Shown here in pieces: positions 11,093 to 51,404 of a stretch of DNA of 64,000 bases (positions within the stretch are counted from its first letter, which is position 1; each line of letters starts with the position of its first letter). This DNA is from Opitutia bacterium (GTDB lineage Bacteria > Verrucomicrobiota > Verrucomicrobiia > Opitutales > Opitutaceae). The notes beneath the pieces are model-generated. The model ran no database searches. It was not told the DNA's origin and saw only the letters and a program-made list of their open reading frames with translations. Where the stretch lies: the NCBI GenBank assembly GCA_016187945.1, contig JACPIT010000013.1, positions 186,001 through 250,000 of the forward strand. Reading direction: 5' to 3'. The translations under genes and the position numbers were made by a program.

Positions 11093-11162
11093 TGTAGCGG
11101 CGGTCTATGACCGCCGAGTATCCTATTCACGCGTTCGTCGGCGGTCACAGACCGCCGCTACA
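11093..11162. repeat. Palindromic repeat, family E
   Basis: 25-bp arms starting TGTAGCGGCGGTCTATGACC (11093-11117 and 11138-11162) with one mismatch and a 20-base spacer. Each arm is itself a short hairpin. It lies between two co-directional minus-strand genes. A decayed relative is at 16672-16740. Confidence 0.88.
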
Positions 11163-15186: not shown

Positions 15187-15406
15187 GGGGCGTCATCGTC
15201 TCAGGCGGAAAATCGGACGCGAACGGCTCAACGAACGGGCGGAAGCGCCCGCAAAAATCGCCGAATAGCGGAAGATGCGCCACGGCGGTGTTGTTCGGGT
15301 GGCGCGTGAGCTTCGCGAACGGCGCAGGCGGCACGAGCAGCGTGGACGGCGCGAGCGGCGTGGATTTTCCAATCGAGAATTGCCTGAAGAAGCGACGCTG
15401 CGTGAG

Positions 15407-17161: not shown

Positions 17162-18598
17162 ATGAATCTCGAACCCGCTCCCCGCCTGCCGAAGTGGATC
17201 TTTCTCGCGATCGACGCCGGCCTCCTGCTCATCGCGTTCGTCATCGTTTATTTTGCCAAGGATCCTTACGCGCCACTGCCGTTCGTCAGCGCGGTGCTAT
17301 GCGCGGCCCTCGCCGCCTTGATCGGCCTCGTGCCGTTCCTGATCGATTTCGCCGCCGACACCGCCGAGGCGGTCCAGCGCGAGCGCGAGCGCATCAACGA
17401 GCAGGTCGCGCGTCTCCACGCCGCCACCGAAAGCCTCGCGCGCGCCGCCGCGCAAATCAAAGCCGTCGAGGAAGCCGTGCACAAATCCGCCCGCGACGCC
17501 GAGACGCTGCCCTACCGGATGCAGGAGAAACTCGCGGAATTCAACGAGACCCTCGCCGCCAAGGAGGAGAACGACCGCGAGGCGCTCGAAACCGAACTCG
17601 AGGAACTCCGCGCCGCCAACAGCGACCAGCTCAAGAGCACCGCGGAAAAGATCTCGAAAGCCGCCGCCGACTGGTCCGCGCTCGAAACGGCCACGCGCAA
17701 GCAACTGGCCGCCGCCGAAGCCGCGCTCGCGAAATTGCAGCACGGCTCGAGCGACGCCGCGACGGAGTTCCAAACCAAAATCTCCACCGCCCTGAAGGAA
17801 CTCGACGCCAGGATTTCCGACCTGAAACACGCCGCCGCCAGCGTGCCGACGACGATCGCCGTCGCCGCCGCCCCGGCGCCGATTGCGCCGGTAGCGCCGG
17901 TAGCGCCGGTCTCAGACCGGCGAGACGAAACCGCTGCCGCGCCCGACGCCGGTCAAAGACCGGCGCTACCGGCCGAGCCGCTCGCCACCACGCCCCCGCC
18001 CGCGGAAGCCGAGACCGAAATTTCCGCCGCCATCGCTGTGAGCGAACCCGCTGCCACCGAAATCGCACCCGCCGCCGAAGCGCCGAAGCCGAAGAAACCT
18101 CGCGCCCCGCGCAAGCCGAAGGCGGACGACACGCTCCTCGCGATGTCCGCCGAAGCGTCGCCCGCCTCCGTCGCGAACGGCACCGAGCACGCTGCGGCTT
18201 CCGCGCCCGCACACTCCGCGCCCTCGCCCGCGACTGAACCCGAACCGCCGGCGCCAGCGCCAGTCGCCGACGAGTCGATCGCGTCTTCCGCCAGCGACGA
18301 GTCCGCCGCGACATCCGACGTCGAATCCTCGACCTCATCGGACGGCGCCACGCGCCTCCTCGCGACGGCCTACATCGGCATCGGCAATAAGCTCTTCATC
18401 CGCGGCGATGGTCCGGGCCTGACGTGGGATCGCGGCGTGCCGATGCAGTTCGTCTCGATCGGCAAGTGGGGTTGGTCGACGCAAGACGCCGCCGGGCCGG
18501 TGCGCTGCAAACTCTACAAGAACGACGACCTCGCCTCGCTCACCGGCGAAATCCTCCTCGAAGCCGGCCGCCACACGGAAGTGACGGCGCTGTTCTGA
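17162..18598 (+). CDS. Membrane-anchored coiled-coil protein with Ala/Pro linker
   Basis: 478 residues from ATG 17162. Two adjacent N-terminal helices (residues about 11-30 and 37-62), a long coiled coil (about 70-225, Ala/Glu/Lys-rich), a low-complexity Ala/Pro/Glu linker (about 226-400) with a Lys/Pro stretch, and a compact C-terminal domain (TRLLATAYIGIGNKLFIRGD to the end, about 85 residues) with a Trp-rich motif GKWGWSTQDAAGPV. The linker contains an entire family D palindrome (17899-17970), read through in frame. Possibly a structural or envelope-spanning protein; function unknown. Confidence 0.8.
   Translation: MNLEPAPRLPKWIFLAIDAGLLLIAFVIVYFAKDPYAPLPFVSAVLCAALAALIGLVPFLIDFAADTAEAVQRERERINEQVARLHAATESLARAAAQIKAVEEAVHKSARDAETLPYRMQEKLAEFNETLAAKEENDREALETELEELRAANSDQLKSTAEKISKAAADWSALETATRKQLAAAEAALAKLQHGSSDAATEFQTKISTALKELDARISDLKHAAASVPTTIAVAAAPAPIAPVAPVAPVSDRRDETAAAPDAGQRPALPAEPLATTPPPAEAETEISAAIAVSEPAATEIAPAAEAPKPKKPRAPRKPKADDTLLAMSAEASPASVANGTEHAAASAPAHSAPSPATEPEPPAPAPVADESIASSASDESAATSDVESSTSSDGATRLLATAYIGIGNKLFIRGDGPGLTWDRGVPMQFVSIGKWGWSTQDAAGPVRCKLYKNDDLASLTGEILLEAGRHTEVTALF
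17899..17970. repeat. Palindromic repeat, family D, inside a coding sequence
   Basis: 24-bp arms starting GGTAGCGCCGGTCTCAGACC (17899-17922) and CGCCGGTCAAAGACCGGCGC (17947-17970), two mismatches. It encodes about residues 246-270 of the coiled-coil protein without breaking the frame. The same element lies in the gene at 47712. Confidence 0.88.
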
Positions 18599-41089: not shown

Positions 41090-41136
41090 GGGGACGAAAG
41101 TTGTGGGTTGGTCGTGCGCGGTTTCAGGAAAGGGAG

Positions 41137-47036: not shown

Positions 47037-47239
47037 GCCGTCCGCGAATTCCGCGAATGCACGCGCATCAAGGCTTCGTCGCCTGAGGTAGGGCGGGACC
47101 GCTGGGCCCGCCGGGAACGTGATGCCACGCCCGCGGCGCGCCCGGCGGTCGCGCCCTACCAGGGACGCCACCTCCGTCAGTCCCTTTCGCTACTCCGGTA
47201 GATTTTGCATTCGCGGAAATTCGCGCGATTCGCGGGAGC
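47037..47239. repeat. Nested palindrome, family J outer, family C-like inner
   Basis: Outer arms CCGTCCGCGAATTCCGCGAA (from 47037) and CGCGCGATTCGCGGGAGCCC region (to 47239); inner GGTAGGGCGGGACCGCTGGG (47087) and CCCGGCGGTCGCGCCCTACC (to 47160). Same outer family as 20230-20723 but with a different inner element. Confidence 0.8.
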
Positions 47240-47307
47240 CCTTCTGCACGCAACCGGCCAAGCGCGCGGACTTGCGAGCCGCGCACGGGCATGCATCGTT
47301 GCCGCCG

Positions 47308-47712
47308 ATGTCCGACGCTCCGACGCCCACGCCTGAAATCACCGAGCCGCAAGGCGAGCTCGTCATCCGCACGATCGCGATGCCGGCCGACACGAACGCC
47401 AACGGCGACATCTTCGGCGGCTGGCTCATGTCGCAGATGGACCTGGGCGCCGCCATCGTCGCGAAAAACCTCTCGCGCAGCCGCGTGACCACGGTCGCGG
47501 TCGACGGCATGGTTTTCCACAATCCCGTTTACGTCGGCGACATCGTGAACTGCCACGCGCGCCTCCTGAAAGTCGGCCGCACCTCGATGCGCATCGACAT
47601 CCAGGCCTGGGTGCAACGCGGCCAGGACGGCACGCTGCTGAAGGTGACCGAAGGCATCTTCACCTACGTCGCCATCGACGACAAAGGCCGGCCGCACCCG
47701 GTGCATCGCTGA
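47308..47712 (+). CDS. yciA: Acyl-CoA thioesterase, YciA type
   Basis: 134 residues from ATG 47308; the frame is open upstream through a repeat. Hotdog fold: IRTIAMPADTNANGDIFGGWLMSQMDLGAAIVAKN with the catalytic Asn/Asp region, VAVDGMVFHNPVYVGDIVNC and EGIFTYVAIDDKGRPHPV. Hydrolyses acyl-CoA esters in the cytoplasm. Stop and the next gene's ATG share one base (TGATG), indicating coupling. Confidence 0.92.
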   Translation: MSDAPTPTPEITEPQGELVIRTIAMPADTNANGDIFGGWLMSQMDLGAAIVAKNLSRSRVTTVAVDGMVFHNPVYVGDIVNCHARLLKVGRTSMRIDIQAWVQRGQDGTLLKVTEGIFTYVAIDDKGRPHPVHR

Positions 47713-48278
47713 TGAACGCGCCCTGCTCCGCGTCTGGGAAACTGATTTCGGTAGCGCCGGTCTCTGACCGGCGGATCGGACGCGGCGTTGCCCTCGTCGC
47801 CGGTCACAGACCGGCGCTACTCCTCTCCGCGTTCGTCGCGTCGCTTTTTCTCTTCGCCGTCGCACCCGCCTTCGCTCAACGCACCACGCTCGCCGACGGC
47901 TTGAAAGCCGCCGTGCTCCGCGCCGACGAGACGCGCCTCTACGCGATGCTCGCCGCCGACACCGGCGCGCTCGACGACATGCTCGCGGCGGACTGCCTCT
48001 ACGTGCACTCGACCGGCGCCGCGCAGACGAAGGCGCAACTCCTCCACGCCCTCAAAACCGGCACGTTCAAATACACCTCGTTGCGCTACACCGCGCCACC
48101 GCTCGTCCGCCTCTACGGCGGCGAGGCCGCAGTCATCACCGGCACGATGCAGCTCGAAGTGCAGCTCCCCGACGGCAAGTCCGCGAAGCCCACGGTGGTC
48201 GTCACCGCCGTCTATGTGATGCTCAACGACCGCTGGCAGCTTGCGTCGTATCAATCGACGAACGCGCCGGCGAAGTGA
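47712..48278 (+). CDS. Exported NTF2-like (DUF4440-type) protein
   Basis: 188 residues from ATG 47712. N-region of the signal peptide (residues about 13-37, VAPVSDRRIGRGVALVAGHR) is encoded by a palindrome (47750-47820); the hydrophobic core is LLLSAFVASLFLFAVAPAFA. The mature part is one NTF2-like domain: LKAAVLRADETRLYAMLAAD, DDMLAADCLYVHSTGAAQTK, VVVTAVYVMLNDRWQLASYQ. Without the repeat there is no start codon in front of the hydrophobic core, so the element seems to provide part of the leader. Function unknown. Confidence 0.8.
   Translation: MNAPCSASGKLISVAPVSDRRIGRGVALVAGHRPALLLSAFVASLFLFAVAPAFAQRTTLADGLKAAVLRADETRLYAMLAADTGALDDMLAADCLYVHSTGAAQTKAQLLHALKTGTFKYTSLRYTAPPLVRLYGGEAAVITGTMQLEVQLPDGKSAKPTVVVTAVYVMLNDRWQLASYQSTNAPAK
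47750..47820. repeat. Palindromic repeat, family D, inside a coding sequence
   Basis: Arms GGTAGCGCCGGTCTCTGACC (from 47750) and GCCGGTCACAGACCGGCGCT with AC to 47820. Read in frame as the signal peptide N-region of the NTF2-like protein. Same family and same reading frame product (APVSDRR) as 17899-17970. Confidence 0.87.
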
Positions 48279-51198: not shown

Positions 51199-51365
51199 GT
51201 AGCGCGGTGCTTTGGCCCGCGCCGAAGGATTGTCAGTGCGGGCTAAAGCACCGCACTACCTCCCCCCCCCCGCGCTCGCGAGAACTGTAGGAGCGGCTTT
51301 ATGCCGCGACTCGTTCGGGCGCGGCATACGCTGCGGTGCAATCGCGGCGTAAAGCCGCTCCTACA
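51199..51365. repeat. Composite palindromic element (families B + A)
   Basis: Family B complete: GTAGCGCGGTGCTTTGGCCC (51199) to GGGCTAAAGCACCGCACTAC (51259), then a C9 run, then family A TGTAGGAGCGGCTTTATGCC (51286) to AAAGCCGCTCCTACA (51365). Between convergent genes. Confidence 0.9.
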
Positions 51366-51404
51366 ACTTCCGCATCGCGCCGGTGCGTCCGGCGGTCGCA
51401 CCGC

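Follow-up and report, generated by a model that had tools for sequence, protein, structure and literature searches.

A REPIN lies in frame within the n-region of a predicted signal peptide in an Opitutaceae bacterium

REPINs and their associated RAYTs have been described as inverted doublets of a REP sequence that end in GTAG, occur in high copy number, and belong to a REP family that also flanks the RAYT (Bertels and Rainey 2011, PMC3116915; Nunvar et al. 2010, PMC2817692). The element reported here shares all of these properties, but the REPINs of those studies are overwhelmingly extragenic, whereas the copy within the DUF4440 gene described below is coding. Intragenic GTAG REPs were published in 2013 by Di Nocera, De Gregorio, and Rocco, Opitutus terrae being the species with the most, and the main text of that report describes in-frame REP dimers that code for 20–30 residues, including one in uvrA and N-terminal cases; many of the N-terminal REPs were held there to be mis-annotated starts (PMC3733652). 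Signal peptides are not mentioned in that main text, and its supplement may list an O. terrae case; our literature search on REPs in signal peptides found nothing relevant. Rickettsia palindromic elements, as cited in the same report, are likewise in-frame palindromic repeats within functional protein genes, some of them N-terminal and expressed, but they belong to other repeat families, and n-region placement is not reported in the accounts found. According to the main text of the 2013 report, the O. terrae elements resemble those of the genome studied here (G000) in belonging to the GTAG-tagged REP dimer superfamily, in coming from a related genus, and in the presence of a REP in uvrA (PMC3733652).

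The window analyzed is a 64,000-nt stretch of Opitutia bacterium assembly GCA_016187945.1 (contig JACPIT010000013.1, positions 186,001 to 250,000). A complete 70-nt REPIN, reading GTAG...CTAC on the + strand, is located at 47751–47820 of the window, in frame within the ORF at 47712–48278 and not in the extragenic location that is usual, although not strictly so, for these elements. Its two 23-nt arms are identical at 22/23 positions when inverted, and each combines a GTAG tag at the outer end with a GCCGGTC/GACCGGC stem in an imperfect palindrome, as is characteristic of REPINs. The features of the locus, together with the second in-gene copy, are as follows (a slash marks the cleavage position).

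47119–47712, + strand: upstream 4HBT thioesterase ORF, probably in the same operon
47712–48278, + strand: gene encoding a 188-aa DUF4440 protein (NTF2-like fold; Pfam PF14534, 55.2 bits) with predicted export
47712–47714, + strand: ATG start codon, sharing one base with the thioesterase stop (TGATG); in relatives the corresponding overlap is ATGA
47751–47820, + strand: REPIN (inverted REP doublet) encoding ORF residues 14–36
47751–47773, + strand: left REP arm, GTAGCGCCGGTCTCTGACCGGCG, which reads VAPVSDR
47774–47797, + strand: 24-nt spacer between the arms
47798–47820, − strand: right REP arm, inverted, CGCCGGTCACAGACCGGCGCTAC; the + strand reads AGHRPAL
47814–47867, + strand: hydrophobic core (h-region), ALLLSAFVASLFLFAVAP, with the first two residues derived from the REPIN
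47868–47879, + strand: c-region with probable cleavage site AFA/Q; A55 and Q56 are invariant in six orthologues
17900–17969, + strand: second in-gene REPIN of the same family, mid-gene, with both arms in the same reading frame as in the 47751–47820 copy

We assign the element to the GTAG REP type by its sequence and its RAYT linkage. A 21-nt arm pattern allowing ≤3 mismatches gave nine matches in the window, as compared with 0 expected from 100 dinucleotide shuffles, and at the same threshold there are about 363 REP arms across the G000 genome. At ≤2 mismatches G000 contains 284 arms and each of 12 congeners contains 0–13; the REP expansion is therefore specific to the G000 lineage. Doublets predominate, accounting for 92 of the 151 REP elements read in the fetched stretches of G000. 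The genome contains eight Y1 transposase matches, and a RAYT of 197 aa on contig C15 (L034, 1222–1815; PF01797, 37 bits; HWH and YIRNNP motifs recognized by eye) has doublets of the same REP family on both sides, with the GTAG of one REP providing the RAYT stop codon. Among the genes with in-frame mid-gene REPINs are uvrA, murF, the GluQRS gene, and a Y-family-polymerase-like gene with two of them (loci L125, L134, L160, and L185). Additional repeats occur within the window: a REPIN of the GTAGCGGCGGTCTRTGACCGC variant at 11094–11161, on the 5' side of a minus-strand ORF, where an in-repeat GTG would act as a false start, a trap for gene callers; five copies of another GTAG repeat family, GTAGGGCCGGCTTCAGCCGGCCC, at 15388, 18580, 30731, 36428, and 39563; and four copies of AAGCTCCAAGCTCCAATCTCCAAGCTCC-type repeats at 41124, 42709, 43141, and 50172.

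An earlier sequence-only reading of the window had noted that both in-gene copies encode the phrase APVSDRR, which holds for 47751–47820 and for 17900–17969. The left arm of the studied copy has only one open forward frame (VAPVSDR), the other two containing TAG (from GTAG) or TGA. Arms with the TCCGACC variant have a second open forward frame (SAGLRPA), and the reverse arm is free of stops in every frame (RRSETGA, AGxRPAL, and PVxDRRY). Among the 151 elements examined, the left arm in nearly all in-gene doublets reads V(A/G)PV(S/F/P)(D/N)R. Because APVSDRR is what the sole open frame of the arm yields, the shared phrase needs no peptide selection, and its interpretation as a selected peptide motif was rejected.

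The same reading had stated that the palindrome codes for the stretch just before the hydrophobic core, that no start codon lies between the two, and that the repeat has become part of the export signal if the protein is secreted. Residues 1–13 of the DUF4440 ORF are followed in frame by REPIN-coded residues 14–36 (VAPVSDRRIGRGVALVAGHRPAL), which adjoin the core, and then by LLSAFVASLFLFAVAP and AFA/Q; LLSAFVASLFLFAVAPAFA/Q follows directly on the REPIN-coded residues. The REPIN supplies Arg20, Arg21, Arg24, and Arg33 together with Asp19, four arginines and a net charge of +3, giving a positively charged n-region in which Lys10 is the only charged residue before the core that lies outside the repeat. 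The best 12 residues of the core have a mean Kyte-Doolittle hydrophobicity of 2.57. The prediction of a signal peptide is based on charge, hydrophobicity, the AxA site, and conservation among orthologues. The n-region is ∼34 residues long, as compared with ∼3–15 in four orthologues that lack the insert, and it departs from the short n-region that is typical, although not strictly required. A codon-by-codon reading of the ORF found no ATG, GTG, or TTG between the REPIN and the core, in agreement with the earlier statement.

The DUF4440 gene is found at the same place in five same-genus genomes, and all five start at an ATG overlapping the thioesterase stop; with G000 included, a start upstream of the repeat position is conserved in six genomes. 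The five genomes are designated G001, G004, G007, G008, and G009. Four of the five orthologues have no insert and reach the core within ∼15 residues of the Met: G001 (MKLLAILLLAL...), G004 (MITLSTILRRALFV...), G009 (MIRVSQIFFGLG...), and G008 (MNAVAQLASRRAPQLFALIF...). In the fifth, G007, the corresponding position of the n-region is occupied by a different REPIN. Because the orthologues share the start and four of them lack the insert, the repeat entered a gene that already possessed both start and core, landing between the two. This comparison with orthologues, which the sequence-only reading had called for, supports its proposal that the repeat is part of the export signal if the protein is secreted, as do the further genes described below. 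An alignment-based search of genome contigs gave matches in three Opitutus/Candidatus Didemnitutus contigs; a genome-contig search with the single DUF4440 protein as query gave no matches. In pairs with G000, the mature DUF4440 domain has dN values of 0.16–0.29 vs dS values of 0.52–1.54 (Nei-Gojobori), or dN/dS of ∼0.2–0.3, similar to pairs without G000. The mature domain is under purifying selection at a level like that in the relatives.

At least three further secreted-protein genes of G000 contain a REPIN between the start and the predicted signal-peptide core, and in all three the span from repeat to core is free of start codons. The secreted protein at L163 reads MRSPSP...DAGWKPALL followed by LRLANLFLSATLAATAASA. 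The GHL10 lipoprotein at L164, whose start overlaps an upstream stop and which has an alternative ATG within the repeat spacer, reads ...NAGRRPALL followed by QSLAALAVLFLAGC, and the AmiA-like gene at L199, whose GTG start is less certain, reads ...DAGRRPALL followed by HAFALTLTFILTLTSAPRAAA. Orthologues of these three genes in congeners other than G007 have short n-regions. Weaker signal-peptide cases were not counted: L156, whose repeat contains a TTG; L096, which has a GTG in the core; and L097, a single arm with TTG in the core. The right arm reads AGxRPALL in 4/4 clear signal-peptide cases, or 5/7 including the weaker ones, vs 3/8 mid-gene; these counts are too small for a frame preference in signal peptides to be claimed.

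We consider it likely that a REPIN, presumably moved by a RAYT, entered the n-region of the DUF4440 gene with the reading frame preserved, is translated from ATG 47712, and forms part of a signal peptide that probably functions, the n-region having been the nearest tolerant place. Mobilization of this non-autonomous mobile element by the RAYT of the genome is presumed from their association. Translation of the DUF4440 gene is probably coupled to that of the thioesterase gene before it; no clear Shine-Dalgarno sequence precedes ATG 47712, and coupling is assumed. Translation from the conserved ATG would proceed through the repeat, which would account for the greater part of the n-region and for the opening residues of the core. 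The Sec signal peptide is probably still functional, since the positive charge, core, and AxA site either follow the insert or come from it (Arg20, 21, 24, and 33). Because the n-region would be removed along with the signal peptide, the mature protein would be unchanged. The overlap of the operon genes leaves no intergenic gap, which would make the n-region the nearest tolerant place. The element, its frame, the conserved start, the orthologues free of an insert, the purifying selection on the domain, and the recurrence were observed, whereas we infer translation, export, and RAYT mobilization, as well as tolerance as the cause of the placement.

A possible but doubtful alternative is that the REPIN is kept, or was merely placed, as an RNA or DNA hairpin between coupled cistrons, where it tunes expression of the second gene and its translation is incidental. 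The predicted transcript forms one long hairpin over the whole REPIN, 39 nt after the AUG (z = −3.7 vs shuffles), and a strong mRNA hairpin of this kind could lower translation. REPs are known mainly as transcribed elements beside gene ends (PMC3733652), and in G000 and G007 they are generally found at gene junctions, 3' ends included. However, any REPIN folds in this way, and the hairpin is therefore no evidence of selection; moreover, it would lie within the translated region, where ribosomes unfold it. An effect of the RNA hairpin on expression may be a rival of the insertion model or an addition to it.

It is improbable that translation begins at a non-standard codon, or by re-initiation at the core, leaving the repeat as an untranslated leader. 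Di Nocera et al. suspected as much for many N-terminal REPs, according to the main text of their report (PMC3733652), and in G007 a TTG is present at the end of the insert, adjoining the core. In G000, by contrast, ATG 47712 is the only standard in-frame start upstream of the REPIN in its open frame; the next standard start after the REPIN is 26 codons on, inside the mature domain, and the nearest CTG (47741) precedes the repeat. All six genomes keep the start at the thioesterase stop, and in the L163 and L199 genes, too, no start separates repeat from core. The third alternative, that the insertion damaged export and left a cytoplasmic protein or a decaying gene, has in its favor the unusual length of the n-region for a Sec signal peptide, ∼34 residues, but is very improbable given the intact frame, core, and cleavage site, purifying selection on the domain as in relatives, and a pattern repeated in G007 and in several exported-protein genes with similar inserts and intact frames.

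The insertion into n-regions extends to a second repeat family. G007 has its own abundant REP family (GTAGCCCGCGACCTCCGGGCGCGGG, >40 matches), which is present in the n-regions of the DUF4440, GHL10, and AmiA-like genes and absent from that of the L163 gene. Within the 20-kb stretch containing the GHL10 and AmiA-like genes, 3/3 G000 REP sites coincide with 3/3 G007 sites, the third being a gene's 3' end, and G001 has neither REP family; because the stretches were picked for G000 n-region cases, only the G007 occupancy is unbiased. G007 nevertheless groups with G001 and not with G000 when G005 or G008 is the outgroup (126 vs 18 and 30, and 110 vs 15 and 17 informative sites). The sites shared despite this grouping imply either independent occupation or inheritance combined with loss in G001 and turnover of the repeat family. 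The G007 DUF4440 insert was also considered as a diverged G000 REPIN, which was rejected for the left part, a member of the G007 family; the right end may be a relic. The right end resembles an GTAGCGGCGGTCTNTGACCGC-type arm with 4 mismatches in 20 in the same frame, the only such match in ∼120,000 G007 windows. The DUF4440 n-region of G007 may hold a newer REPIN together with a decayed arm of an older REP, and the likeness of that arm to G000 arms weakly favors an older occupation of the site.

Differing REPs have been reported at approximately the same site of Xanthomonas recB orthologues in two species; the account in the main text concerns one gene (PMC3733652), whereas here three n-regions and one 3' end are involved, spread over two 20-kb regions. 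Repeats of differing families were also observed elsewhere. An intergenic segment of the window (51199–51382) contains two other GTAG-type repeats (GTAGCGCGGTGCTTT... and GTAGGAGCGGCTTTA...); a REPIN of the G007 genome's own occupies this site in G007, and none is present in G001, which makes it a further shared site with a differing family. In one gene (L245:9191, L246 (reversed 9551), and L247), REP-like repeats of differing families lie at the 3' end in related species, the REP GTAG providing the TAG stop. A speculative and rather doubtful reading is that REPINs of this lineage favor n-regions as a coding niche. The right arm, read in one frame (AG-H/R/W-R/K-PALL), would then offer a ready-made join between positive charge and core, unrelated families would repeatedly occupy the same sites in different species, and mobile repeats would rebuild export signals again and again.

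Many N-terminal REPs were doubted as mis-called starts in the main text of the 2013 report (PMC3733652); unlike these, the G000 case has a conserved start and no downstream start, and n-regions are the target in several genes. What appears to be new is a location within a signal peptide that comparison with orthologues supports, together with its recurrence and the use of the same n-regions by a second family. Wrong start calls cannot account for every REP-containing N-terminus among annotated Opitutaceae proteins. The presence of two families in the same n-regions raises the question of whether these are hot spots, inherited sites with family turnover, or the only tolerant places. The DUF4440 gene offers a clean and testable case of a selfish DNA repeat that now codes for a presumably functional part of a protein, and the fact that this part is normally cut off may explain why the repeat is tolerated.
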